Positions 2,515 through 11,917 of a stretch of 64,000 nucleotides of DNA are shown here, piece after piece. Source of the stretch: a virus; the IMG/VR virus record IMGVR_UViG_3300026519_000001, positions 1 through 64,000 of that record; one strand, written 5' to 3'. Made by a program: the position numbers and the translations under genes. The notes under the pieces were generated by a model. The model was not told the origin of the DNA. It was given only the letters and a program-made list of their open reading frames with translations, and did no database searches. Position 1 is the first letter of the stretch. Each line of letters starts with the position of its first letter.

Positions 2515-2943
2515 ATGAAAGATAGAAACATCCAACATAAAGACGATTGGGCGACACCAGCATATTTTTATGATGAATTAAACAAAGAGTTTGATTTTAA
2601 CTTTGATCCTTGCCCGTATCTGCACGATTTTAGTAAATGGAACGGACTTGAAATTGAATGGAAGGAGCGAAATTTTATTAACCCACCTTATAGCAGAAAA
2701 CTGAAAGCCGCATTTGTAATTAAGGCAATAGAAGAAAGTAAAAAAGGTAAATTATGTGTAATGCTTTTGCCTGTGAGTACAAGCACTCAATTATTCCACA
2801 AACACATATTGCCGAATGCAAAAGAAATACGATTTATAGAAAAAAGAATAAAATTTTGCGGTGTAAATACAAAAGGAGAATATGTTACAGGCAAATCAGG
2901 CATGCACGATAGTATGTTGGTGGTGTTTGATGGACGCACTTAG
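2515..2943 (+). CDS. Dam-like DNA N6-adenine methyltransferase
   Basis: The 142-aa protein matches the small phage Dam family: DDWATP near residues 10-15, the FDPCP stretch (30-34) and the catalytic NPPY at 56-59, then MLLPVSTSTQLFH and the closing strand. It would methylate adenine in DNA, probably to evade host restriction. It stands between the 2461 palindrome and the first attC-like R'' (2957, 13 nt after its stop). It is therefore either the last ordinary phage gene or the first cassette; no matching 5' cassette end (GTTGTGC) is visible upstream. Confidence 0.85.
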   Translation: MKDRNIQHKDDWATPAYFYDELNKEFDFNFDPCPYLHDFSKWNGLEIEWKERNFINPPYSRKLKAAFVIKAIEESKKGKLCVMLLPVSTSTQLFHKHILPNAKEIRFIEKRIKFCGVNTKGEYVTGKSGMHDSMLVVFDGRT

Positions 2944-2956
2944 CATTTTTTATTGT

Positions 2957-3320
2957 GCACAACGAATAGCATAAGCGTAGTGCGACTTTAGAAACGAAAT
3001 TTCAAAATAATAACAGAACTAATAATTAAAGATTATGGATAACGAAATTAAAATTGAAGCAAAAGAATTAGTGAATAAAATATACCAACCTCTTGGATCT
3101 TTAGATTGTAAAGTAAATAGTGATACAATGTGGGAATATGCACAAGGCAGAACGATTGAAATTGTGGAACATTTTATTGCGAAAATGCCAGAGGGTTCTG
3201 CAAATTGGTTGCATCATAGAAAGTTGATAGACGCTATTAATAATCTTTAATTATGGCATTTGAAACACTAAACTTGATTTTAAGCACTGTATTAAGCATT
3301 ACGCTTATGCAGTGTTGTAA
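2957..3320 (+). repeat. attC-like site 1, with an ORF in its loop
   Basis: R'' GCACAAC 2957-2963; L arms GCATAAGCGTA (2969-2979) and TACGCTTATGC (3300-3310) pair perfectly over 11 bp; R' GTTGTAA 3314-3320. The 320-nt loop holds the 71-aa ORF at 3035-3250. Far longer than usual attC sites (about 57-141 nt). Confidence 0.75.
3035..3250 (+). CDS. Small hypothetical protein (71 aa) in the loop of attC-like site 1
   Basis: Charged helical protein (EAKELVNKIYQPLG ... MPEGSANWLHHRKLIDAINNL), no family recognised. The ATG follows AATAATTAAAGATT, a leader-like stretch that recurs before the ORF at 5771, which also lies in an attC loop. After the stop, a segment similar to that at 5963-5985 leads into the right arm of the site. 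Confidence 0.6.
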   Translation: MDNEIKIEAKELVNKIYQPLGSLDCKVNSDTMWEYAQGRTIEIVEHFIAKMPEGSANWLHHRKLIDAINNL

Positions 3321-3342
3321 AATCGTTTTAATGTTTTACAAC
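3314..3342 (+). repeat. ORF-less micro-cassette, copy 1
   Basis: A 29-nt unit bounded by R' GTTGTAAAA and the complementary R'' TTTTACAAC, with only about 11 nt between them. An identical 29-nt copy lies at 6026-6054. It reads as a cassette stripped of its gene. Confidence 0.7.
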
Positions 3343-3469
3343 GATTTGTATATGTGGTGTTGCGTGATTTAGCACCGAACTATTAAGAAATACTTAAACG
3401 TTCAAATTAAGCACGAAAATTAATAAATAAACAATAACCAAGCAATAACATATATACCGTGTTATATGC
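3336..3469 (+). repeat. attC-like site 2
   Basis: R'' TTACAAC 3336-3342 with left arm to 3357 (..TATATGTGG); right arm 3448-3469 (ACATATATACC..) ending in R' GTTATAT 3461-3467. Loop about 90 nt, no ORF. Confidence 0.75.
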
Positions 3470-3485
3470 TTTTAAAAATAACAAA

Positions 3486-3752
3486 ATGTTAAGAAAATTA
3501 TTTAATAAAATAATACCCGTATCTGATGGAATTAAAAAATTAGGACAGCAAATGATTGACAATCCTTTAGACTGGGTTCAAGGGCAATATGAGTTTGTAA
3601 ATCGCAAAAATAGGGATGTTGCAATATGGACTTGCAATGGAATTAATTCGATTAAAATATTTGGATTTGATGGATTAACTAAAAGCGAAAAAATATATAT
3701 AAACAACTGTATAAAGATGGCAATTGCAAATAGATTAGTTCAGTCTCTATAA
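3486..3752 (+). CDS. Cassette-encoded hypothetical protein (88 aa)
   Basis: The ATG at 3486 is preferred over an upstream in-frame TTG that would lie inside the attC R' box. Basic N-terminus (MLRKLFNKIIPVS), then a compact alpha/beta domain with WTCNGINSIKIFGFDG. No family recognised. Its cassette ends match exactly: GTTATATGC (3461-3469) and GCATATAAC (3755-3763). Confidence 0.65.
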   Translation: MLRKLFNKIIPVSDGIKKLGQQMIDNPLDWVQGQYEFVNRKNRDVAIWTCNGINSIKIFGFDGLTKSEKIYINNCIKMAIANRLVQSL

Positions 3753-3754
3753 TT

Positions 3755-3890
3755 GCATATAACGATTTTAATAAGAATAGTAGCCGAAAATGAAACGCAA
3801 AACTTATAAAATTGAACAGAATTATAAACATAGATAATAGCTTAAATAAACAGCTTAACTCGGCTATTATTTTTATTTTTTGTTAGGCAC
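3755..3890 (+). repeat. attC-like site 3
   Basis: R'' GCATATAAC 3755-3763, left arm to 3786 (AATAAGAATAGTAGCCG); right arm 3861-3890 (CGGCTATTATTTTTATT..) with R' GTTAGGC 3882-3888. The left arm differs from that of the site at 9435 at only about two of 30 positions. Confidence 0.88.
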
Positions 3891-3898
3891 TTTAATTT

Positions 3899-4210
3899 AT
3901 GGATAATAGAAAATGGCTCAAAAGAAAATACCCAAAAACATTTAATGAGATAAATAATTTTCTTGATAATGAAACTTTGATATTTGTTAAAAAAGGAAAA
4001 TATAAAATAGGTATGATAACAGAAGATATTATACAAGAGGATATTATATATTTAAAAGGAACTTTATGTTATTTTAAACGAAGTAATCCTATAAATAGTT
4101 ATAATTATCCGTTGCATACAATTTCTGTAAAAGATATACATAATGTAACGCTTAGTAATTATCATAATTTTTGGGTAACACCCAATAATGTAATTGAAAT
4201 TTTTGAATGA
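3899..4210 (+). CDS. Cassette-encoded hypothetical protein (103 aa)
   Basis: Starts 9 nt after the R' region of site 3. N-terminus MDNRKWLKRKYPKTFNEINNF followed by a beta-rich segment that could be an SH3-like barrel (FVKKGKYKIGMITEDIIQ, KGTLCYF). No family recognised. Cassette ends GTTAGGCAC (3882-3890) and GTGCCTAAC (4215-4223) are perfectly complementary. Confidence 0.65.
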   Translation: MDNRKWLKRKYPKTFNEINNFLDNETLIFVKKGKYKIGMITEDIIQEDIIYLKGTLCYFKRSNPINSYNYPLHTISVKDIHNVTLSNYHNFWVTPNNVIEIFE

Positions 4211-4214
4211 TATT

Positions 4215-4316
4215 GTGCCTAACGTTGAATCTATGTGTAGTACAGCCATACATATAGTTTCATCGTTTAATAAAAATGTTAATTGGCTGTATTACATATA
4301 GATAGTGTTATGTGGC
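4215..4316 (+). repeat. attC-like site 4
   Basis: R'' GTGCCTAAC 4215-4223; left arm ATGTGTAGTACAGCCA (4233-4248) pairs with TGGCTGTATTACATAT (4284-4299); R' GTTATGT 4307-4313. 102 nt, a typical attC size. Confidence 0.9.
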
Positions 4317-4325
4317 GTTTTATTT

Positions 4326-4550
4326 ATGGAACAAAGAAATATTAATAATGTTATTTGGTTTTATTACGACAGTGTAATGGAATTTTTGCAAGATTTAATA
4401 GAATATGAATGCGAAATATTTAGAGATGAATATGGTCGTAGGTGGCAATATAAGAAGTACAAATTTTATTTTGCTGATATAAATGAAGAATTAACGGAAG
4501 GACTTTCGTGTTTGCACTTGTTTAAATCAGGAATTACAAATGCCACCTAA
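4326..4550 (+). CDS. Cassette-encoded hypothetical protein (74 aa)
   Basis: ATG 4326 chosen (MEQRNINNVIWFYY); an earlier start would lie in the attC. Acidic/aromatic small protein, no family recognised. Its stop TAA (4548-4550) is part of the R'' box CCTAAC. Cassette ends GTTATGTGGC (4307-4316) and GCCACCTAAC (4542-4551) differ by one base. Confidence 0.65.
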   Translation: MEQRNINNVIWFYYDSVMEFLQDLIEYECEIFRDEYGRRWQYKKYKFYFADINEELTEGLSCLHLFKSGITNAT

Positions 4551-4636
4551 CAACAGGATAACAGCAATTGCGTATATATTATAAACGAATATTAATTTTA
4601 CTAACATTAGGTAATATTAATTATTTGTTGTTACTT
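4542..4636 (+). repeat. attC-like site 5 (diverged right arm)
   Basis: R'' GCCACCTAAC 4542-4551. The left arm at 4546-4572 is identical over 27 nt to 11312-11338 of site 19. The right arm (4611-4633) pairs only weakly. R' lies in GTTGTTAC (4627-4634); its complement recurs in the R'' at 5317-5323 that ends the next cassette. Confidence 0.6.
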
Positions 4637-4663
4637 TGAATTAACAAAAAAAAGAGAGCAATT

Positions 4664-4930
4664 ATGATAAATAGAACTATTGAAATTGAAGATTTAGACA
4701 AAGAGCTGTCTATTACAGTAAAAATTAACTTTTCGGGAGACTGGGAAGAACATTTTGAACATGAAGGAAAAATTGAATATCAGCCAAAATTTAATGAAAT
4801 ACTTAGGGTTGTTGATATTAGTGATAACCCGAAGCATAGTCATAGCATTTTGGAAATTGCCGATGAGCATTACGAAATTGCCAATAAATATTTAGAAAAT
4901 CACGATGTGATGGAGGAGCTAAACCACTAA
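4664..4930 (+). CDS. Cassette-encoded hypothetical protein (88 aa)
   Basis: Preceded by AGAGAGC, an unusually good Shine-Dalgarno-like sequence for this contig. Acidic protein rich in Glu/His (EEHFEHEGKIEYQPKFNEI). No family recognised. First of three ORFs in one long cassette (about 4628-5323). Confidence 0.65.
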   Translation: MINRTIEIEDLDKELSITVKINFSGDWEEHFEHEGKIEYQPKFNEILRVVDISDNPKHSHSILEIADEHYEIANKYLENHDVMEELNH

Positions 4931-4933
4931 ATT

Positions 4934-5155
4934 ATGAAAAATATAATAATTTTAATGATTATTGCAGCAACATTAAGCTGCTCTAAAAAAGAAGAAATTA
5001 ATTGCAAGTGTGATTTTATTTCTTATGAAAGAGAAAATAGGGACTCGGAGTAGGTTGAGAAAAGCAGAATAAGCAGAATAACAGAGTGCGGTAAGCCACC
5101 ATTCTTTATTATTAGCAACACAGAATTATCTAAAGATGTAATTTCTTGCAATTAG
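4934..5155 (+). pseudogene. Small lipoprotein gene interrupted by an in-frame TAG
   Basis: The ATG starts 3 nt after the previous stop. Residues 1-17 form a lipoprotein signal (ILMIIAATLSCSKKEE, lipobox LSC with Cys16). Codon 40 (5051-5053) is TAG; the same frame continues with Cys-containing sequence (..RITECGKPPFFI..ISCN) to TAG at 5153-5155. It is either a nonsense-mutated 73-aa lipoprotein or a 39-aa peptide. The next ORF begins 2 nt after the distal stop, suggesting the original gene ran to 5155. Confidence 0.55.
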
Positions 5156-5157
5156 TT

Positions 5158-5361
5158 ATGGAAAAGTCAGAAAATAAATTAAAAGAGCAACAACTTAGGG
5201 CAGAAATTAGAATTATGCTATCAAAGTATATAGACAACTCACCGTCAATATCTTTAATAGAAAATAAGATAAGAGACCTTGAGCTGCTTGTTTTTAATCG
5301 TGCTTATAAACAAGTATCACAACGATTTGTATATGATTTTGTAGGCATTACGAGCCACTAA
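5158..5361 (+). CDS. Cassette-encoded hypothetical protein (67 aa) running into its attC
   Basis: ATG 5158 chosen (MEKSENKLKEQQLRAEIRIML); helical, probably coiled-coil. The last 15 codons (..RFVYDFVGITSH) are encoded by the R''/left arm of site 6 (5317-5346), so the attC supplies its C-terminus. No family recognised. Confidence 0.55.
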   Translation: MEKSENKLKEQQLRAEIRIMLSKYIDNSPSISLIENKIRDLELLVFNRAYKQVSQRFVYDFVGITSH

Positions 5362-5447
5362 TTTTTTGAATTACCTACATATTTGAAACGAGAAAATAAA
5401 TTTGAATTATTAACCAAATCGCCTATAAATTATATACTTTGTTATAT
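5317..5447 (+). repeat. attC-like site 6
   Basis: R'' TCACAAC 5317-5323; left arm to 5346 (..GTATATGATTTTGTAGGC) pairs with GCCTATAAATTATATAC (5421-5437); R' GTTATAT 5441-5447. The left half is coding sequence of the preceding ORF. Confidence 0.8.
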
Positions 5448-5473
5448 ATCTGGGCGGTTTTAAAGACTAAATT

Positions 5474-5686
5474 ATGATAGAAGAGTTAGAGAAAACAACA
5501 GACTACGCTAAGAAGTACAGAGGTGTAGCACAGCAATCACTTGAAAGAAACAATTATATGAACCAAATAGAAGATGGGGAGCAAATACAGCAAAGGATTA
5601 TAGATGCTGTGCTGGTTGACTTTATAAACTACATTGGAATGATGCACGGAATTGATTATGGAATTTATACAAAAGACTTAATGTAG
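5474..5686 (+). CDS. Cassette-encoded hypothetical protein (70 aa)
   Basis: Starts 26 nt after R'. Helical N-terminus (MIEELEKTTDYAKKYRGVAQQ) and a hydrophobic C-terminal helix (IDAVLVDFINYIGMMHGIDYG). No family recognised. The cassette ends share GTTATAT/ATATAAC (5441-5447, 5693-5699). Confidence 0.6.
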   Translation: MIEELEKTTDYAKKYRGVAQQSLERNNYMNQIEDGEQIQQRIIDAVLVDFINYIGMMHGIDYGIYTKDLM

Positions 5687-5690
5687 CCTT

Positions 5691-6032
5691 GCATATAACT
5701 ATTGCTATATGAATAGTGCGGATAAAATACACGAAACTTTGAATTAAACACAAACCTAATAATTAAAATTATGTACTTAATAAAAATAAAAACTCATAAC
5801 AATCACGGATGCTGGTTAAGGTCTTTTTACGATGGCGACCCTGATAGAACATTGATAAGAGAAAGTGCTTTGAAGTTTGCAAAGAAAAAGATGGCAGAAG
5901 GTAAAGTAAAAATGCTTAACCAACTACACCCTAATAGAAGTTTTGAATTAGAGAAATTTTAATTATGACATTTGAAACACTAAACGTTAATTACAGCACG
6001 AAACCAAGCATTATTTATATAGCGTGTTGTAA
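5691..6032 (+). repeat. attC-like site 7, with an ORF in its loop
   Basis: R'' GCATATAAC 5691-5699; left arm GCTATATGAATAGTGC (5704-5719) pairs at 14 of 16 positions with GCATTATTTATATAGC (6008-6023); R' GTTGTAA 6026-6032. The loop contains the ORF 5771-5962. Same architecture as site 1, and its right half is homologous to that of site 1. Confidence 0.75.
5771..5962 (+). CDS. Small hypothetical protein (63 aa) in the loop of attC-like site 7
   Basis: MYLIKIKTHNNHGCWLRSF.. then a Lys-rich helix (ALKFAKKKMAEGKVKM). No family recognised. The leader AATAATTAAAATT resembles the one before ORF 3035, although the two proteins are unrelated in sequence. Confidence 0.6.
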   Translation: MYLIKIKTHNNHGCWLRSFYDGDPDRTLIRESALKFAKKKMAEGKVKMLNQLHPNRSFELEKF

Positions 6033-6054
6033 AATCGTTTTAATGTTTTACAAC
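6026..6054 (+). repeat. ORF-less micro-cassette, copy 2
   Basis: 29-nt sequence identical to 3314-3342. In both places it joins the R' of a loop-ORF site to the R'' of a normal attC-like site, so a segment larger than 29 nt was probably duplicated. Confidence 0.7.
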
Positions 6055-6141
6055 GGTTGGTATATGTGTTGTACGCCAATCACTTAACTTAAATTTTAGT
6101 ACGACACTTAATAGGCGTATAACATATATACCTTGTTGTGT
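6048..6141 (+). repeat. attC-like site 8
   Basis: R'' TTACAAC 6048-6054; left arm GTATATGTGTTGTACGCC (6060-6077) pairs at 16 of 18 positions with GGCGTATAACATATATAC (6114-6131); R' GTTGTGT 6135-6141. 94 nt; the left arm carries extra bases next to R''. Confidence 0.92.
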
Positions 6142-6168
6142 GTAGTACGGGTAAATAAAGAAGAAATT

Positions 6169-6363
6169 ATGAAGAAATATTTTAGAAAAGACAAACCAAA
6201 TAAAGACCAAATAATTGGGTTTAAATCGAAAAAAGGATTTTATCCTGAGATTGGTGTATTCCAAACATTTGATAATGGCATTGAAGAAGTTTATATACCT
6301 GCAAATGATGATGTAGAGAAGTTATTAGAAATTGAATATTGGTTTGAAGTACCTAAAAAGTAG
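6169..6363 (+). CDS. Cassette-encoded hypothetical protein (64 aa)
   Basis: ATG 6169 (MKKYFRKDKPNKDQIIGF) follows AAAGAAGA. Basic N-terminus and acidic C-terminal half (VYIPANDDVEKLLEIEYWFEVP). No family recognised. Cassette ends GTTGTGT and GCACAAC match with one G.T change and extend outward (..GTAGTA / TATTAC..). Confidence 0.6.
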   Translation: MKKYFRKDKPNKDQIIGFKSKKGFYPEIGVFQTFDNGIEEVYIPANDDVEKLLEIEYWFEVPKK

Positions 6364-6369
6364 TATTAC

Positions 6370-6502
6370 GCACAACGAGTTACTTGTATGAGTAGTAGCC
6401 GTAAATAAGCACAGAATTGAGTAGATACAAAATAAATTAATAACAAGGTAATAGTTTATAAATACAGCCTAACACGGCTATTACTTATACAAATTGTTAG
6501 GC
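6370..6502 (+). repeat. attC-like site 9
   Basis: R'' GCACAAC 6370-6376; left arm TTGTATGAGTAGTAGCCG (6384-6401) pairs at 16 of 18 positions with CGGCTATTACTTATACAA (6475-6492); R' GTTAGGC 6496-6502. Confidence 0.92.
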
Positions 6503-6511
6503 AACGTTATT

Positions 6512-6736
6512 ATGAGTGAAAGTAAATTAAGAATATTCGGTGGAAAAGATGATGTTAGTTTTTGGAGTGATAAGCCTATGCGAAGAGGTAATCCAAACTT
6601 TAAAGAGAAATGGTATCATATACATTGGTATAATATTCTGTATCATCCAAAACATAAATCGACTGATGGTTCTATTGTAGAAGAAATGACAAATATAAAT
6701 CTATATAAATGTAGATGTGGTAAATGTAAGCAGTAG
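6512..6736 (+). CDS. Cassette-encoded hypothetical protein (74 aa) with C-terminal Cys motif
   Basis: ATG 6512 lies just inside the cassette. His/Trp-rich centre (WYHIHWYNILYHPKHKS) and a closing CRCGKCKQ motif suggest metal binding; only half a zinc-ribbon's worth of cysteines is present. Cassette ends GTTAGGCAAC (6496-6505) and GTTGCCTAAC (6743-6752) are perfectly complementary over 10 bp. Confidence 0.65.
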   Translation: MSESKLRIFGGKDDVSFWSDKPMRRGNPNFKEKWYHIHWYNILYHPKHKSTDGSIVEEMTNINLYKCRCGKCKQ

Positions 6737-6742
6737 GCTAAT

Positions 6743-6875
6743 GTTGCCTAACGGTTTGGCTATGTGTAGTGCCGACCTTGATAAATAACTACACTAACTT
6801 AAAACACTGAAACAATGGATAAAGAACATATTAAACAAGAAGAAAACAAGGCATTACATATAGGTGTTGTTGTGT
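6743..6875 (+). repeat. attC-like site 10 (right half inside a coding sequence)
   Basis: R'' GCCTAAC 6746-6752; left arm CTATGTGTAGTGCC (6760-6773) pairs with GGCATTACATATAG (6850-6863). R' GTTGTGT 6869-6875 lies inside the ORF 6815-7015. The next R'' (ACACACAAC, 7019-7027) is the exact complement of GTTGTGTGT here, fixing the cassette boundary. Confidence 0.75.
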
Positions 6876-7015
6876 GTGGTTCTTGCGGTAAAGACATAAA
6901 GCCCGAAGATGATAAGCATTGTTTTTGGGATGAAGATATTGAAGATGGTATAAAGCCCGAATGTTTAGATTGTCATTTGGACAGAGAATCTATTATTAGA
7001 GACTTTGGTTTTTGA
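6815..7015 (+). CDS. Zinc-ribbon-like small protein started inside the preceding attC loop
   Basis: 66 aa. Two Cys pairs, CGSC (about residues 21-24) and CLDC (53-56), fit a zinc ribbon. The ATG at 6815 is in the loop of site 10 and the frame runs through L' and R' into the cassette (ALHIGVVVC is attC-encoded). If translation instead starts at GTG 6872, the protein begins just inside the cassette at the first Cys. No function assigned. Confidence 0.6.
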   Translation: MDKEHIKQEENKALHIGVVVCGSCGKDIKPEDDKHCFWDEDIEDGIKPECLDCHLDRESIIRDFGF

Positions 7016-7020
7016 ATTAC

Positions 7021-7151
7021 ACACAACGTTACCGTGTATGGTTTCGTTGCGTGTAAATAAGAAAAAACATTGATTAAACAATAAATAAAATAAATACTAA
7101 CAAGCCTTTGGAATAGCAGTTAGAAGCAATGAATTATACACATTGTTACCT
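7021..7151 (+). repeat. attC-like site 11
   Basis: R'' ACACAAC 7021-7027; left arm 7031-7050 (ACCGTGTATGGTTTCGTTGC) pairs with 7126-7144 (GCAATGAATTATACACATT); R' GTTACCT 7145-7151. Confidence 0.85.
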
Positions 7152-7196
7152 ACTGTACGAGTAAAAAGGCACAAACTTTAATAAAAAACAGAAATT

Positions 7197-7589
7197 ATGG
7201 GAATGTACACGGAACTAATATTTGGTGCTGATTTAAAACAAGACACACCAAAAAACGTAATTGAAGCCTTAAAATATATGATAGGCGATACAGAAGAAAA
7301 GCCTAATGACTTTCCTTTACCTGATGGTAGATGTGAATGGTTATTTAATAGTGCTAGTTATTACTTTGGTGTAAATAGACCAGTAAATAAAATGTGGTTT
7401 GATCATATTGATAATAATTGGGTTTTAAGCACCCGAAGCAATATAAAAAACTATGAAGGCGAAATTGAGGCTTTTTTGGAATGGATAAAACCATACATTG
7501 ATGGTGGTAGTGGTTATCGTGATATGTATGCAATAGTTACTTATGAAGAAGCAGAAGTGCCAAATATTTATTACTTGCGCGAAGATTAG
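7197..7589 (+). CDS. Cassette-encoded conserved hypothetical protein (130 aa)
   Basis: Starts MGMYTELIFGADLKQDTPKNV, an N-terminus I recall from a family of hypothetical proteins spread in phages and other mobile DNA. Contains a beta-rich core and SGYRDMYAIVTYEEAEVPNIYYL at the end. Function unknown. Cassette ends GTTACCTAC (7145-7153) and GTAGGTAAC (7594-7602) are perfectly complementary. Confidence 0.75.
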   Translation: MGMYTELIFGADLKQDTPKNVIEALKYMIGDTEEKPNDFPLPDGRCEWLFNSASYYFGVNRPVNKMWFDHIDNNWVLSTRSNIKNYEGEIEAFLEWIKPYIDGGSGYRDMYAIVTYEEAEVPNIYYLRED

Positions 7590-7593
7590 TATT

Positions 7594-7688
7594 GTAGGTA
7601 ACGGTTTGTGTATGAAAAGTAGCCCATACACAGGCTTTCGGAATTATTACAAAACTTAATGGGCTATTTTTTATACACTTTGTTAGCG
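7594..7688 (+). repeat. attC-like site 12
   Basis: R'' GTAGGTAAC 7594-7602; left arm GTGTATGAAAAGTAGCCCA (7608-7626) pairs at 17 of 19 positions with TGGGCTATTTTTTATACAC (7660-7678); R' GTTAGCG 7682-7688. The cleanest site in the window. Confidence 0.93.
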
Positions 7689-7730
7689 TTTCGTTTTTTG
7701 AGCGTTGGCAGATAAAATAAAGGAAATATT

Positions 7731-7937
7731 ATGAGTACAAAATTTGTAGATAGAAAAAACGATGAAGAAATAATTGACATCGTAAACAGTATTTTATCAA
7801 ATGGTAAAATGCAAGTAGAAACTATTAATGAAGCTATATTAGTCAAGTTAATGGAAATAAGGAATACTCCTATAAAATACGATAAATCGTTTAGGAATAT
7901 TGATAAAGATTTTAAGCGTTGGCAAAATGAACGCTAA
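7731..7937 (+). CDS. Cassette-encoded hypothetical protein (68 aa)
   Basis: Preceded by AAAGGAAAT, Shine-Dalgarno-like. Charged helical protein (DIVNSILSNGKMQVETINEAILVKLMEI). No family recognised. The stop TAA (7935-7937) lies inside R'' CGCTAAC. Cassette ends GTTAGCGTT (7682-7690) and AACGCTAAC (7930-7938) are perfectly complementary. Confidence 0.65.
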   Translation: MSTKFVDRKNDEEIIDIVNSILSNGKMQVETINEAILVKLMEIRNTPIKYDKSFRNIDKDFKRWQNER

Positions 7938-7972
7938 CACACGGCTAACCGGCATGCTTGATATTTGTGGAT
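7930..7972 (+). repeat. attC-like left half (site 13), right half not found
   Basis: R'' AACGCTAAC 7930-7938 is followed by a second R''-like box GGCTAAC (7943-7949). No complementary right arm with a GTT box could be found before 9430, so this site appears split or decayed. Confidence 0.5.
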
Positions 7973-7997
7973 ATACGGAACTTAAAAATTATCAAAA

Positions 7998-8087
7998 ATG
8001 AAGTTTATAATAATTGACATAGATGGAACTGTTTCAAAAATAGGAGACCGTCTTAAATGCTTTCAAGTAGAAGAAGGAGATTTTTAA
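7998..8087 (+). pseudogene. HAD-type phosphatase fragment (29 aa)
   Basis: The N-terminus MKFIIIDIDGTVSKIGDRLK carries the HAD nucleophile motif DxDGT (Asp8, Asp10), as in phage phosphatase/PNKP-like proteins, but the frame stops after 29 codons. The remaining HAD motifs are absent. It is probably a truncated remnant; a functional role for the peptide is unlikely. Confidence 0.6.
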
Positions 8088-8088
8088 A

Positions 8089-8274
8089 ATGTATAAAATA
8101 TCATATAGAATCTCGTATCGACCAATAAAGCTGCCTGTTATATTTCAAGGTATAAAAGGATATGCACCTAGATTGTGGCATGTATTTTACGAACACAGAT
8201 GGATGTTATTTTCTGAATTTTATAACATTCAAAAACATGATGAAATGATTATTGGGTTATTTTTAGAAAAATAG
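8089..8274 (+). CDS. Small hypothetical protein (61 aa)
   Basis: Begins one base after the HAD fragment stop. Basic/aromatic (YKISYRISYRPIKLPVIFQGIKGYAPRLWHVFYEHRWMLF). No family recognised, and no attC site separates it from its neighbours. Confidence 0.5.
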   Translation: MYKISYRISYRPIKLPVIFQGIKGYAPRLWHVFYEHRWMLFSEFYNIQKHDEMIIGLFLEK

Positions 8275-8276
8275 GA

Positions 8277-8612
8277 ATGAACAAAATACCAACCATATTA
8301 CAAGATTACTTTCTTCTAACTTTAGATAAAAGGTTTGAGTCTAAGTCAAAGTCTGGATTAATGACGGTTAATGAATCATACATAGCCGGAACAGCAGAAG
8401 AAGAGGAAGGGTGGGAAAAGAACCTCCACAAAAGAATTTATGGAACTGTAATATCTTGCCCAAAGTCATTTAGTGATGACCCTATATTTGCAATAGACCC
8501 CGGTAGCCCAACCCCTAAAAGATATATAAGTGCCGAAGAAATAGAAAATAAGGTAAAGATTGGGATGAGAAATTACTCAAGGACAGATTACTCGCCAACG
8601 CCTTTAATTTAG
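8277..8612 (+). CDS. GroES-like co-chaperonin-type protein (111 aa), low confidence
   Basis: Beta-rich protein: DYFLLTLDKRFESKSKSGLMTV at the N-terminus, then KRIYGTVISCPKSFSD and PIFAIDPGSPTPKRYIS. The order 'K-x-x-SGL ... YGTVIS-P' resembles GroES-like proteins of Bacteroidota phages, but the mobile loop and roof are not obvious. The C-terminus looks cut short (..YSRTDYSPTPLI), and the following frame overlaps its end. Confidence 0.4.
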   Translation: MNKIPTILQDYFLLTLDKRFESKSKSGLMTVNESYIAGTAEEEEGWEKNLHKRIYGTVISCPKSFSDDPIFAIDPGSPTPKRYISAEEIENKVKIGMRNYSRTDYSPTPLI

Positions 8613-8635
8613 ATAAATTTATTACAAAAGAAAGG

Positions 8636-9004
8636 TTGGAAAAGAGCAAAACAGGAAATGTAATAGGGCAACTCTCTAAATGGATGCAAGAAGACGGAAT
8701 GCCTTACTACATTGATACACTTTACTATAATCACTTAGGTAAAAAGTTGCCTGCATCTGCTTTAGGATATACGCCAAATGGCGAAGGTATAAACTTTCTT
8801 CCAATCTTGTTAAATGTTAGATACTCTGATAAAGGCAAAAACCATTTAGTTGGTGGTAAAATAAGCAAAAACGGTGTTTTGTACTTATACGATAGTTTAA
8901 AAGAAGAAATGATTGAAACTACACTCGCAAAAGCAAATAGAATGTACCATAATGTATATGGCTTGTTTATGTCTGTTGAAACTGGCGACTATATTTTTAT
9001 ATAA
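8636..9004 (+). CDS. Hypothetical protein (about 122 aa), start uncertain
   Basis: The frame is open from 8552 and overlaps the previous gene's end; the upstream stretch (KDWDEKLLKDRLLANAF..) looks protein-like but has no ATG. TTG 8636 is the only plausible start, with a poorly spaced AAAGG. Contents: MPYYIDTLYYNHLGKKLPAS, then a beta-rich C-terminus. It may be the 3' part of a frameshifted gene. No family recognised. Confidence 0.45.
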   Translation: MEKSKTGNVIGQLSKWMQEDGMPYYIDTLYYNHLGKKLPASALGYTPNGEGINFLPILLNVRYSDKGKNHLVGGKISKNGVLYLYDSLKEEMIETTLAKANRMYHNVYGLFMSVETGDYIFI

Positions 9005-9036
9005 GCACAAGGTTAGTACTTGTAGTTAACGAGATA

Positions 9037-9068
9037 GGCTAAACGGTTGTTTTAATGCCGTTTTAGCC
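9037..9068 (+). terminator. GC-richer hairpin in the 9005-9132 gap
   Basis: GGCTAAACGG (9037-9046) pairs with CCGTTTTAGCC (9058-9068). Its loop shares TTGTTTTAATG-like sequence with the 29-nt micro-cassettes, so it may be a decayed cassette end rather than a terminator. The T-run is short. Confidence 0.45.
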
Positions 9069-9132
9069 ATTTTGCTTGTATATATCGTATATATCATATA
9101 CCTTAGTAATATCAAATTAAAACATTAAGAAA

Positions 9133-9306
9133 ATGACAAACTCAGAATTAAGAATCGAAATAGCAAAGTTAGAAGAACAAAAAATAAACTTTTGCGATAA
9201 CAATTTGTTATTTAACCAATTTACTGCACTGATTAATGAAATTAAAATAGAAATACATAAAGATAGTAAAGTTGCACTAAAAGCACTTGGATTTGGAGAA
9301 AGATAA
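9133..9306 (+). CDS. Small helical protein (57 aa)
   Basis: ATG 9133 with AAGAAA upstream. Coiled-coil-like N-terminus (LRIEIAKLEEQKINFCDNN) and a second amphipathic helix. Its stop overlaps the ribbon-helix-helix-like frame that follows. No family recognised. Confidence 0.5.
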   Translation: MTNSELRIEIAKLEEQKINFCDNNLLFNQFTALINEIKIEIHKDSKVALKALGFGER

Positions 9307-9431
9307 TTGACATACCAGAAGATATTAAGAAACAATTGCAAATACTTGCTATTAAAGCGGATAAGGATTTAAAGAACTATATACAAGACTTACTAATTAG
9401 CCATATAGCATATAGCGTGGGCAAAAAATAG
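9306..9431 (+). pseudogene. Ribbon-helix-helix-like fragment without a normal start
   Basis: The 41 codons encode IDIPEDIKKQLQILAIKADK.., the strand-helix-helix pattern of Arc/MetJ-type antitoxins (IP-E-hKK-L---A). There is no ATG/GTG/TTG in frame; only ATT or ATA near the overlap with the previous stop could initiate. It is likely a 5'-truncated antitoxin-like remnant, followed 3 nt later by attC-like site 14. Confidence 0.5.
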
Positions 9432-9434
9432 TTA

Positions 9435-9567
9435 CATATAACGGTTTTAATAAGAATAGTAGCGTGTAATTATGCGGAAACTATCAGATTGAAATAATTA
9501 ATTAACAGGTAATAGCCACTAAAAAGACACCTTAACAGGCTATTATTTTTATACATTGTTAGGGTGC
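9435..9567 (+). repeat. attC-like site 14
   Basis: R'' CATATAAC 9435-9442; left arm AATAAGAATAGTAGC (9449-9463) pairs with GCTATTATTTTTATA (9539-9553); R' GTTAGGG 9558-9564. Close relative of site 3. Confidence 0.88.
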
Positions 9568-9577
9568 GTTACTTAAA

Positions 9578-9832
9578 ATGAACAACCCAATTAAAGATAA
9601 CAGAATTGTAAAAGACAAAACTTTCGCTTTAAGGCTTTTAAGTTTTGCGTTAGAAACCAACTGTGTTGATGCTTCTAGTGAAGATGAAAAAGAATCTATG
9701 ATAAGTTACTCTACAAGTTTACTTAAATACCAAATAGAAACTGCAACCGAAATACACGAAACGGCTTATTTAGAAAGGTGTAATGCAAAAGCAAGACTTA
9801 AAAAAGGATTAAAGTTTTTAGGTAAAGCCTAA
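9578..9832 (+). CDS. Cassette-encoded helical protein (84 aa)
   Basis: All-helical: IVKDKTFALRLLSFALETN, then SSEDEKESMISYSTSLLKYQIETATEIHETAYL. The start recalls four-helix-bundle (23S IVP-like) proteins, but the rest does not match convincingly. Cassette ends GTTAGGGTGC (9558-9567) and GCACCCTAAC (9834-9843) are perfectly complementary over 10 bp. Confidence 0.65.
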   Translation: MNNPIKDNRIVKDKTFALRLLSFALETNCVDASSEDEKESMISYSTSLLKYQIETATEIHETAYLERCNAKARLKKGLKFLGKA

Positions 9833-9833
9833 T

Positions 9834-9878
9834 GCACCCTAACGATGCCTCACTTTGCTATATTTATTGTTAGGCATC
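9834..9878 (+). repeat. attC-like site 15 (short, deleted)
   Basis: R'' GCACCCTAAC 9834-9843 and R' GTTAGGC 9869-9875 are only 25 nt apart. The stretch before R' (GCTATATTTATT) matches the usual right arm, while most of the left arm and loop are missing. GATGCC (9844-9849) and GGCATC (9873-9878) form an extra small stem. Confidence 0.65.
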
Positions 9879-9896
9879 TTTTAAAATTACGGCATT

Positions 9897-9977
9897 ATGG
9901 GATATAATCTAATAAGTGGTTGTCATAAATGTGAAAAGCAAATATTTCACTTTAGAAATGAAGAAAATAACACATAA
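9897..9977 (+). CDS. Short Cys-containing ORF (26 aa)
   Basis: MGYNLISGCHKCEKQIFHF.. holds one CHKC knuckle and ends after 26 codons, overlapping the next gene. It starts 18 nt after R', the usual place for a cassette gene. Possibly a truncated zinc-ribbon protein. Confidence 0.4.
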   Translation: MGYNLISGCHKCEKQIFHFRNEENNT

Positions 9978-10194
9978 TTTAGGAGAGAAATTGCAATGGT
10001 TTTTATACTTTGTTATATGCCGTTTTGGTTTTCATAAATGGGGAATGACCAAATGGTGCAGATTTAAAGATAAAAAATGTAAGTATTTAGTTGAAGAAGG
10101 TTTTGACAGAGATTGCGAACATCCATTTAATTATGTTGTGATTGGTAATGATACAATACTAAATAAATGCACAAAATGTGGTAAAGAATTTTAG
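9958..10194 (+). CDS. Cys-rich hypothetical protein (78 aa) with attC-derived N-terminus
   Basis: ATG 9958. Residues about 13-22 (KLQWFLYFVIC) are encoded by an attC right-half-like segment (9992-10020) with R' GTTATAT at 10012-10018. The rest has C-K-KC--L-EEGF-RDC and a C-terminal CTKCGKEF ribbon half. The true start may be ATG 10044. Some phage proteins share RFGFHKWG plus CGK at the end; function unknown. Confidence 0.55.
   Translation: MKKITHNLGEKLQWFLYFVICRFGFHKWGMTKWCRFKDKKCKYLVEEGFDRDCEHPFNYVVIGNDTILNKCTKCGKEF
9992..10018 (+). repeat. attC-like right half (site 16), left half not found
   Basis: ATGGTTTTTATACTTTGTTATAT has the same layout as other right arms (..TATACTTTGTTA..), but no paired left arm is recognisable upstream and no GCATATAAC closes the unit downstream. 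Confidence 0.45.
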
Positions 10195-10203
10195 CAATTT
10201 ATG

Positions 10204-10401
10204 TTTGCTAACGGTTTGTGCAAGGTTAGTGCGGAATTAATAACAGAACTTAATAAATATAAACTATGGTAAATATAAACACTATTGAAGGAATTGAAAA
10301 CCTTATAGATAAAAGAACAAAACCTTTAAAAGAGGAAATACTTAAACTACGATTTGAATTAGAAGAACTGAAACAAGCATTAACTATACAGATTGTTAGC
10401 A
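10204..10401 (+). repeat. attC-like site 17, with an ORF in its loop
   Basis: R'' TGCTAAC 10206-10212; left arm TGTGCAAGGTTAGTGC (10217-10232) pairs with GCATTAACTATACAGA (10377-10392); R' GTTAGCA 10395-10401. The loop carries a coding sequence that runs through R'. Confidence 0.75.
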
Positions 10402-10415
10402 TTTCGGTTTTCTAA
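10266..10415 (+). CDS. Coiled-coil peptide (49 aa) encoded in an attC loop
   Basis: ATG 10266; sequence LIDKRTKPLKEEILKLRFEL.. is a heptad-like helix. The last 13 codons (..ALTIQIVSISVF) are encoded by the right arm and R' of site 17. Third example here of an ORF starting in an attC loop. Confidence 0.5.
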   Translation: MVNINTIEGIENLIDKRTKPLKEEILKLRFELEELKQALTIQIVSISVF

Positions 10416-10431
10416 CAAAACTAAAATTATT

Positions 10432-10719
10432 ATGAAACAAATTATTGAATGGTCAAAAGGAAACCCTGGAGCAATGAACTTTATGATGGAGTTTTTTAAA
10501 CCAGAAAACGCAGTATTAGGAATTGGAATACTATCGAAATTGGAAGAATTGAAAACTATTAGAGGAACTAATCTTTATGTGCTTTACTCTGATTTATGTG
10601 GTAAGGATTTAAAGGCAGTTGAAACTCTTTGTAAAAATTGCCCGTCTGAAATATTAGAAGATGCTTGTTCAAGACAAGACTACTCTGGTAGAGAGTTGGT
10701 AAAGGAGTACCTTACATAG
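10432..10719 (+). CDS. Cassette-encoded conserved hypothetical protein (95 aa)
   Basis: ATG 10432 (MKQIIEWSKGNPGAMNFMME). Helical, with ENAVLGIGILSKLEELKTIRG, a CKNCP pair and a GRELVKEYL end. I recall similar conserved hypothetical proteins in phages and mobile elements; function unknown. The next frame starts at GTG overlapping its TAG. Confidence 0.75.
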   Translation: MKQIIEWSKGNPGAMNFMMEFFKPENAVLGIGILSKLEELKTIRGTNLYVLYSDLCGKDLKAVETLCKNCPSEILEDACSRQDYSGRELVKEYLT

Positions 10720-10829
10720 TGATAGATGATAGTGAAATAATTAATACAAGAGAAATGGCAGAAGCATTAGAACACGCAATGTTTATTAGTTTTTGTTTTA
10801 ATAACCCTGATAGAATAGACTTACGTTAG
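10719..10829 (+). CDS. Small coupled ORF (36 aa, GTG start)
   Basis: GTG 10719 overlaps the previous stop (TAGTG). Product MIDDSEIINTREMAEALEHAMF..DRIDLR, acidic and helical. Plausible by coupling only; no family recognised. Confidence 0.4.
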   Translation: MIDDSEIINTREMAEALEHAMFISFCFNNPDRIDLR

Positions 10830-10844
10830 TAATTTTTATCGTGG

Positions 10845-10909
10845 GTAATGAATGGTTGTATTGTGTCGTATTTGCTTTTCGCAAATATGCAATATATACT
10901 TTGTTAGGC
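10845..10909 (+). repeat. attC-like site 18 (compact)
   Basis: A 65-nt hairpin: TATTTGC (10869-10875) and GCAAATA (10881-10887) close a 5-nt loop, an outer imperfect stem follows, and R' GTTAGGC is at 10903-10909. The R'' side (GGGTAATG) is degenerate. Confidence 0.65.
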
Positions 10910-10953
10910 TTATGTACGGTAAATGATAAACTAAATTATAAAAACAGAATAAA

Positions 10954-11304
10954 ATGGAAAAATTTAAGATTGAAATTGACAGAAGAGAAATAGTTGAAAC
11001 TATTAACAAAGGTATTCACGATAAAATTAGAGAGCAAATGAACGCTCAATCTAAGCAAATTGAAGCATCTATTGCTGATCACTTTAAAAGATCGTTTTTC
11101 AATGAAAAGAAAAATGAATTTGAATCTGCTTTGGATTATACTATTGAAACTTCATTTAGAGATGGATTGGAATTAGCAATGAAAGAAATGAAGTTCAAAG
11201 AACTAATTGCAGAAAAAGCAAAAGAATTATTAAGTGATGACAATTTGATACAGGAACTTGCAGAAGCAAAAGTTAGAAGTTCTTTAGGTTTACCGCTAAA
11301 GTAG
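10954..11304 (+). CDS. Cassette-encoded helical protein (116 aa)
   Basis: Long amphipathic helices (EIVETINKGIHDKIREQMN, EFESALDYTIETSF, FKELIAEKAKELL) and no cysteines; a coiled-coil-like protein of unknown role. Cassette ends GTTAGGCTTA (10903-10912) and TAAGCCTAAC (11308-11317) are perfectly complementary over 10 bp. Confidence 0.7.
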   Translation: MEKFKIEIDRREIVETINKGIHDKIREQMNAQSKQIEASIADHFKRSFFNEKKNEFESALDYTIETSFRDGLELAMKEMKFKELIAEKAKELLSDDNLIQELAEAKVRSSLGLPLK

Positions 11305-11307
11305 TAT

Positions 11308-11469
11308 TAAGCCTAACAACAGGATAACAGCAATTGCGGTATTAGACAAGACTAGTTTGATTAAAACCGCTAATGGTGAATAATGAAAAGTATAATATGA
11401 TAATCCATACTTAAAATTTTGCTATAAGAATTGAACTTAGATGGCTTTTTACTTTATACAATGTTACCC
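11308..11469 (+). repeat. attC-like site 19, right end of the array (mosaic)
   Basis: R'' TAAGCCTAAC 11308-11317 with a left arm (11312-11338) identical to that of site 5. The right arm 11441-11469 (ATGGCTTTTTACTTTATACA..) with R' GTTACCC belongs to the other sequence class and does not pair with it. Downstream is ordinary phage DNA. Confidence 0.65.
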
Positions 11470-11527: not shown

Positions 11528-11917
11528 ATGTCATTAACAAAAGAACAAAAAAGTAAACAAGCAAAAAATAATCGTGCAAAAGGACATTCTTTAGAAAGAA
11601 GAATAAGATTAAAATTTATTGAATTAGGTTTTGATAAATGCCGAACCAGTAGACAGGCTTCCAGATTATTAGATGATAGTAAAGTAGATTTAGCACAAAT
11701 ACCTTATAATGTACAATGTAAAAAAGGTTATCCAAAAGGAATAAATTATACAAAGCTGTTTCAAGATATGAATGAGAGTTTGAAAGAACACTTTATGGAA
11801 GGTGATCCAATAATAGATTATCCTAAAATTATCATACATGATAAAGATAGGAAGAAATCAGAAAAGCTTGTAATTATGCAAGAAGAAGATTTTTGGAAAA
11901 TATTTAAACATAAATAA
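11528..11917 (+). CDS. PD-(D/E)XK nuclease, Holliday-junction-resolvase-like (129 aa)
   Basis: Small single-domain nuclease: Lys-rich N-terminus, Glu23 in KGHSLERRI, SRQ at 41-43, then KVDLAQIPYNVQCKKG giving Asp54 and the Q63-x-K65 catalytic pair. The layout matches Hjc/endonuclease-like phage resolvases acting on branched replication DNA. First phage-type gene after the cassette array. Family level is fairly secure; substrate is inferred. Confidence 0.75.
   Translation: MSLTKEQKSKQAKNNRAKGHSLERRIRLKFIELGFDKCRTSRQASRLLDDSKVDLAQIPYNVQCKKGYPKGINYTKLFQDMNESLKEHFMEGDPIIDYPKIIIHDKDRKKSEKLVIMQEEDFWKIFKHK

Follow-up and report, generated by a model that had tools for sequence, protein, structure and literature searches.

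A phage-borne, integron-like cassette array in a crAss-like virus and its probable recombinase in related Bacteroidota phages

A stretch of 64,000 nucleotides (positions 1 to 64,000 of the IMG/VR virus record IMGVR_UViG_3300026519_000001; 'the window' hereafter) carries an array of small genes and palindromic sites at positions 2955-11465. The array is very probably an integron-like cassette system that belongs to Bacteroidota phages and for which related phages encode the recombinase. This reading is carried by the architecture of the cassettes in the window, by the recombinase and the attI-like junction found in relatives, and by the exact loss and gain of cassettes between cultured relatives.

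By reading and scanning, 18-19 site positions were recognized in the array, all in one orientation and composed of an R'' box (ending in AAC) and an R' box (starting with GTT) with complementary arms (L'' and L') in between. They alternate with plus-strand open reading frames (ORFs) of around 49-130 codons. An earlier reading of the letters alone (the sequence-only reading) had claimed at least 15 attC-like palindromes in a single orientation among small ORFs, and this is corroborated by the statistics: with 13 as the minimum gapped L-arm score, the 8.7 kb of the array yielded eight sites compared to 0.15 for a dinucleotide shuffle; the remaining 52 kb of the window had none. An ungapped L-arm search with strict core patterns yielded two sites only and was judged too strict. 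In around ten cassettes the R' box that precedes the gene and the R'' box that follows it are reverse complements at 8-10 of 9-10 bases. Such complementarity across genes is the signature of integron cassettes. Seven of these pairs are listed here with their positions and matching bases (cassettes numbered as further below):

Cassette 2: R' GTTATATGC at 3461, R'' GCATATAAC at 3755 (9/9)
Cassette 3: R' GTTAGGCAC at 3882, R'' GTGCCTAAC at 4215 (9/9)
Cassette 9: R' GTTAGGCAAC at 6496, R'' GTTGCCTAAC at 6743 (10/10)
Cassette 11: R' GTTACCTAC at 7145, R'' GTAGGTAAC at 7594 (9/9)
Cassette 12: R' GTTAGCGTT at 7682, R'' AACGCTAAC at 7930 (9/9)
Cassette 15: R' GTTAGGGTGC at 9558, R'' GCACCCTAAC at 9834 (10/10)
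Cassette 18: R' GTTAGGCTTA at 10903, R'' TAAGCCTAAC at 11308 (10/10)

The same signature was found in a wider set of arrays. Among 137 neighbouring site pairs from 86 non-redundant loci, 4.26 of the 6 variable core bases match across the gene and 60% of the pairs match at 5 or more, compared to 2.27/6 within one site and 2.11/6 upon random pairing (4% at 5 or more in both cases). When 123 sites were defined by the core pairs alone, and the arms thus ignored, the L-arm score was 12.4 versus 3.8 for shuffled sequence. The L arms are variable and contain many Watson-Crick pair types, and they are polar, in that G (first arm) faces T (second arm) at positions 7-8 and 12-14 and the reverse hardly ever occurs. 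Basically two kinds of cassette can be discerned. In the first, the gene lies between GTT and AAC; in the second, it lies inside the palindrome between the L arms and the GTT/AAC is then usually closed by a CGTTTTAATG loop. Two or three sites in the window enclose an ORF between L'' and L' in this way (2961-3316, 5697-6028, 10210-10397). The CGTTTTAATG loop also caps stems that are unrelated to each other, some of them within attC and others between R' and R'' (window 3324 and 6036; many loci).

A 29-bp hairpin, present in the window at 3314 and 6026, recurs in exact copies in 55 viral contig stretches and in just 2 contigs among 257 Gb of bacterial and archaeal genomes; no ratio is derived from these counts, as the viral collection came with no figure for its total size. 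One of the two genome contigs, L059, resembles a phage contig by eye, with lysis-type genes and a recombinase. Furthermore, dozens of Bacteroidota phage contigs contain sites of the window type, as do cultured phages of Cellulophaga and Polaribacter. More explicitly, Cellulophaga phage phi39:1 carries the hairpin, phi19:1 a close variant, and Polaribacter phage P12002L an array of the same site family on the minus strand. Plasmids contained no match to the site consensus. A terminase domain was matched in 18 of the 48 array records, and other crAss-like array records could be recognized by a crAss terminase (G451, G032) or a muzzle-type protein (G015/G037, G031, G033). The sites in the window match those of the phages Freya and Danklef and of the wider set in AAC-GTT spacing (82-86 or 116-122 nt), and, like them, have polar G.T pairs at positions 7 and 12 of the L arms. 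By site family, spacing and polarity, the window array is assigned to the phage cassette system as a member without recombinase. Short open frames cross the right half-site and the hairpin (window 3253-3371 and 5965-6087; peptide CCKIVLMFYN), and translation of the hairpin is therefore possible.

Four array contigs encode a small tyrosine recombinase downstream of the last AAC box, and a wider search recovered 42 loci with such a gene. In 26 of the 28 virus loci that have the recombinase and enough upstream DNA, its start codon is preceded at a distance of 36-54 nt by an AAC box which closes a cassette through 8-12 complementary bases (criterion: at least 8); at control positions this applies to around 3.5%. 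The motif AAC-TAYTATATATAA upstream of the gene is conserved in most loci and likely represents the attI of the recombinase. One crAss-like genome (G451/L089) combines crAss terminase, muzzle, recombinase, attI-like site and array. The recombinases measure 263-271 amino acids and are thus XerA-sized; the nearest solved structures by sequence are archaeal XerA/XerC-like (4a8e, 5hxy), followed by IntI4 (2a3v), and the structure model has a predicted local distance difference test (pLDDT) score of 90. Four of them match the IntI model TIGR02249 below its cut-off and in two pieces (~1-181 and 237-315), omitting positions ~182-236. The IntI-specific patch was not found in the recombinases of the relatives in this comparison, and the IntI cut-off was passed by 0 of 50 array records.

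A close member of the recombinase family was found in 1 of 395 Bacteroidia genomes, inside a prophage (G367). Larger XerA-like recombinases, present in around half of these genomes, were rejected as members of the system, their frames mostly being ~280-560 amino acids; the AAC motif was absent from the upstream DNA examined for these larger relatives, with the exception of G367, the true member. The longer XerA-like recombinases (L130-L158) often lie near contig ends. Within a Bacteroidia prophage cassette region, three near-identical reverse-transcriptase ORFs were observed (L159:19180-19974, L160:1349-2629, L160:3647-4927), which are group II intron-like. Introns that target attC occur in bacterial integrons.

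The exact gain and loss of cassettes can be followed in cultured relatives. The genomes Freya_1, 2, 5, 6, 8, 9 and 10 (a Polaribacter phage isolated on a single host) show 0-4 base differences across 41.8 kb and range in length from 43,978 to 48,920 bp. Compared to Freya_10, four Freya genomes lack 307, 3198, 4100 or 4942 bp, with the loss ending at the attI-like AAC|ACCCC. A single 902-bp cassette is missing from Freya_8, and Freya_6 has a different stretch of ~470 bp at the attI-like site beside the recombinase (one cassette gain). Likewise, a 781-bp methylase cassette of Danklef_5 is absent from Danklef_2-4, from AAC to AAC. Clean Freya junctions have an overlap of 3-4 bases at AAC, and every junction observed in Freya and Danklef falls in the AAC box (the R'' of the sequence-only reading), never in the GTT box. 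As the AAC box reads GTT on the strand opposite the genes, the crossover in these phages corresponds to the G|TT of integrons. In the sequence read, the Danklef recombinase lacks its first part (5'-truncated; L174:5200-5983 in Danklef_5, matched there by Danklef_2-4). The fact that the Danklef isolates differ by a cassette despite this truncation suggests that the change came from a recombinase acting in trans. The original description of both phages reported an integrase, temperate potential and a Freya size range of 44.0-48.9 kb; it did not invoke integrons or cassettes, nor attribute the size range to cassette variation (PMC8776804).

With the crossovers located in the AAC box, the unit that moves consists of attC, leader and gene, and ends in AAC. 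In line with this unit, homology blocks begin at AAC, pass the GTT box and extend into the leader; similarity between attC sites was tied to the downstream gene or leader in five pairs and to the upstream gene in none, and the 29-bp hairpin goes together with the palindrome to its left, which carries the gene. An analysis of gene-neighbour linkage with 450-nt windows was discarded, as it was confounded by overlapping windows. In the relatives examined the array genes point toward the recombinase, and not away from the attI and integrase as in integrons. From these comparisons we conclude that the cassette genes are reversed relative to canonical integrons and that the array is read toward the recombinase, so that the polarity implied by the R''/R' labels of the sequence-only reading has to be inverted.

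We propose the following mechanism. A plus-strand cassette would comprise a palindromic attC-like site, a leader, usually one small gene and an AAC box. The XerA/IntI-like recombinase of related phages would join AAC boxes together, resulting in excision and shuffling, and would also join them to the attI-like AAC box upstream of its own gene, resulting in insertion. It presumably acts on folded single strands, and it is probably this enzyme, rather than another, that produced the events in Freya and Danklef. Since the window phage has cassettes but no recombinase, its array would need the enzyme in trans, and cassettes would be gained or lost only when a co-resident phage or prophage provides it. 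The enzyme of a relative would then act on the window array, which may still be active, and the cassettes would constitute a variable pool of accessory genes.

The features of the array and its borders, all on the plus strand, are as follows:

2515..2943: DNA adenine methyltransferase ORF (phrog_111) at the left edge, ending next to the first R'' (2955)
2955..3322: cassette 1, attC with internal ORF; R'' 2955-2963, L'' 2969-2983, ORF 3035-3250, L' ~3297-3311, R' 3314; L arms 15 nt, AAC-GTT distance 353
3314..3342: 29-bp R'-CGTTTTAATG-R'' hairpin without ORF, copy 1
3340..3763: cassette 2; attC 3340-3463, ORF 3486-3752
3761..4223: cassette 3; attC 3761-3884, ORF 3899-4210
4221..4551: cassette 4; attC 4221-4309, ORF 4326-4550; R' 4307 / R'' 4542 complementary 9/10
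4549..5323: cassette 5; weak attC 4549-4629 (weak L arms), ORFs 4664-4930 and 5158-5361
5321..5699: cassette 6; attC 5321-5443, ORF 5474-5686
5697..6054: cassette 7, attC with internal ORF 5771-5962; the second 29-bp hairpin closes the cassette at 6026-6054
6052..6376: cassette 8; attC 6052-6137, ORF 6169-6363; R' 6135 / R'' 6368 complementary 8/9
6374..6752: cassette 9; attC 6374-6498, ORF 6512-6736
6750..7027: cassette 10; attC 6750-6871 overlaps the start of ORF 6815-7015; R' 6869 / R'' 7019 complementary 9/9
7025..7602: cassette 11; attC 7025-7147, ORF 7197-7589
7600..7938: cassette 12; attC 7600-7684, ORF 7731-7937
7936..9030: block 13, half site; ORFs 8089-8274, 8277-8612 and 8636-9004; paired L arms looked for and not found
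9028..9442: block 14, site in the form of a degenerate hairpin (AGGCTAAACGG-loop-CCGTTTTAGCC)
9440..9843: cassette 15; attC 9440-9560, ORF 9578-9832
9841..10212: block 16, degenerate site; ORF 9916-10194
10210..10850: block 17; attC 10210-10397 encloses a short ORF, followed by ORF 10432-10719
10841..11317: cassette 18; degenerate attC 10841-10905, ORF 10954-11304
11315..11465: terminal site at the right edge, read from the sequence
11528..11917: RusA-like resolvase, the first phage gene right of the array

The site of block 14 is 89% identical over 53 nt to a site of P12002L that lies between two methylase genes. None of the 20 array ORFs tested against Pfam showed a known domain above cut-off, an Rfam search gave no match, and an attI-like motif was absent after the terminal site and elsewhere in the window.

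The record measures 94,261 bp and is possibly an incomplete genome. Its Crassvirus markers (muzzle PF25731; portal and terminase phrog_6547 and phrog_6681) identify the genome as that of a Crassvirus, in agreement with the crAss-like affiliation proposed in the sequence-only reading. The array is surrounded by primase and RusA-like resolvase genes. In the crAss relative L003, the window's first gene, the primase and RusA occur in unchanged order, but the gap between primase and RusA is ~1.4 kb versus 9.9 kb in the window genome and contains no attC-like sites; the array therefore represents an insertion relative to L003. No closer crAss relatives were found among viral contigs using the phage exonuclease. 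A second, short cassette array is present in the window's genome at 81.98-82.96 kb (L001:17980-18960; R' GTTAACTAC, R'' GTAGTTAAC). The attC and leader of cassette 6 (window 5321-5477) are 82% identical to a second copy at genome position 82.49 kb, and the homology begins at AAC.

Several other explanations of the array have to be weighed. It could be a classical cluster of attC sites without integrase (CALIN): a crAss-like phage would have taken up cassettes from the chromosomal integron of a bacterium, and any movement of these cassettes would depend on the IntI of the host. The attC-like sites in one orientation and the lack of a nearby integrase agree with this, and in E. coli IntI1 was able to recombine attC2 of P12002L (PMC9892861), a phage whose array belongs to the window family. 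Nevertheless, we consider it unlikely. The site family is common to many unrelated Bacteroidota phages and nearly absent from bacterial genomes (the hairpin in 55 viral stretches versus 2 contigs), integrons are nearly unknown in Bacteroidetes (PMC9024848), not one array record passes the IntI cut-off, and gene polarity and crossover box are opposite to the canonical ones. Moreover, a phage recombinase with its own attI-like site adjoins the array in relatives, the crAss-like G451/L089 included. The capture of a bacterial array, as put forward in the sequence-only reading, is therefore not supported. That the palindromes are now just RNA elements (terminators, leader hairpins) which have lost their recombination role in the window phage is distinctly unlikely. 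The location of the sites between stop and start codons, the sense-strand fold preserved by G.T pairs and the degeneration of some sites would fit, but complementarity of R' and R'' across genes, absent within sites, is not expected of terminators and is intact in around ten window cassettes, and the relatives show exact cassette events.

The recombinase could also be a plain lysogeny integrase, and the arrays passive repeats between genes, subject to homologous recombination. This is how the gene was read in the Freya/Danklef study (PMC8776804), and the genes of the relatives are annotated 'integrase'. Considering the fact that the junction overlaps comprise 3-4 bases, which is far too short for homologous recombination, and always lie at the AAC box, and that one event put another cassette precisely into the site next to the recombinase, this is highly unlikely. 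An assembly chimera, with a bacterial or plasmid array fused to a crAss-like contig, would account for the lack of an array in L003. It is extremely unlikely, given the arrays in other crAss-like records (G451, G032; G015/G037, G031, G033), the same sites in complete genomes of cultured phages and the second array elsewhere in the same genome (~82.0-83.0 kb).

Some observations weigh against a phage-owned cassette system with a recombinase provided by relatives. The sequence-only reading noted the lack of an integrase in the window, and this extends to the whole known genome, as a tyrosine recombinase search of the 94,261-bp record gave no match. The sites at 4549, 7936, 9028, 9841, 10847 and 11315 are weak, degenerate or half sites. 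The recombinase of Freya is just 37% identical to that of L059, and in some phages the recombinase could also serve lysogeny. Finally, cassette gain and loss are known from the relatives and none was seen in the window's own phage.

The system has in common with integrons that its cassettes are bounded by AAC/GTT cores pairing across the gene and that its palindromic attC sites possess R and L boxes. In the relatives, a tyrosine recombinase by an attI-like site, insertion at attI and single-cassette excision are shared as well. It differs in that the phage recombinase is XerA-sized and lacks the IntI patch, the genes are read toward the recombinase, the crossover is located in the box on the 3' side of the gene, attC encloses some of the genes, and the system is phage-borne; the window itself has no recombinase or attI. 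Because of the lacking patch, the reversed polarity and the absence of recombinase and attI from the window, the array falls outside the definition of an integron in spite of its integron-like working. In sequence the recombinase is nearest to the XerA-type Xer/dif enzymes, yet it is linked to a palindromic cassette array and not to a single dif site. CALINs in phages, P12002L included, were described by Qi et al. in 2023, who predicted two attC sites in P12002L, one of which (attC2) recombines with IntI1 (PMC9892861). That study describes no such phage recombinase, names no crAss-like phage and leaves the polarity unresolved (PMC9892861), whereas the present analysis adds an array of around 18 sites, a family of recombinases and the natural exchange of cassettes among isolates. 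Freya and Danklef combine arrays of the window site type with the recombinase (truncated in Danklef). A literature search that excluded preprints and most subscription papers gave no account of a phage-borne recombinase with such arrays. Phage CALINs were thus already known, and the phage-borne recombinase with reversed arrays is apparently new.

On the whole, we regard it as probable that a separate class of integron belongs to the Bacteroidota phages, including those that are crAss-like, with a patchless XerA-like recombinase, an attI of its own and inverted cassettes that circulate mainly among phages, and with members lacking the recombinase being mobilised in trans. If true, integron-style exchange would be run by phages themselves and not by bacteria alone, and its extent would have been overlooked because current integron software rejects the phage recombinase. 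It would also explain the variable accessory genes, methylases included, of crAss-like and marine phages. Freya and Danklef are culturable phages in which cassette gain and loss can be tracked directly, and the system provides a test case for the origin of integrons from Xer-type recombinases and for the need of the IntI patch on folded sites.

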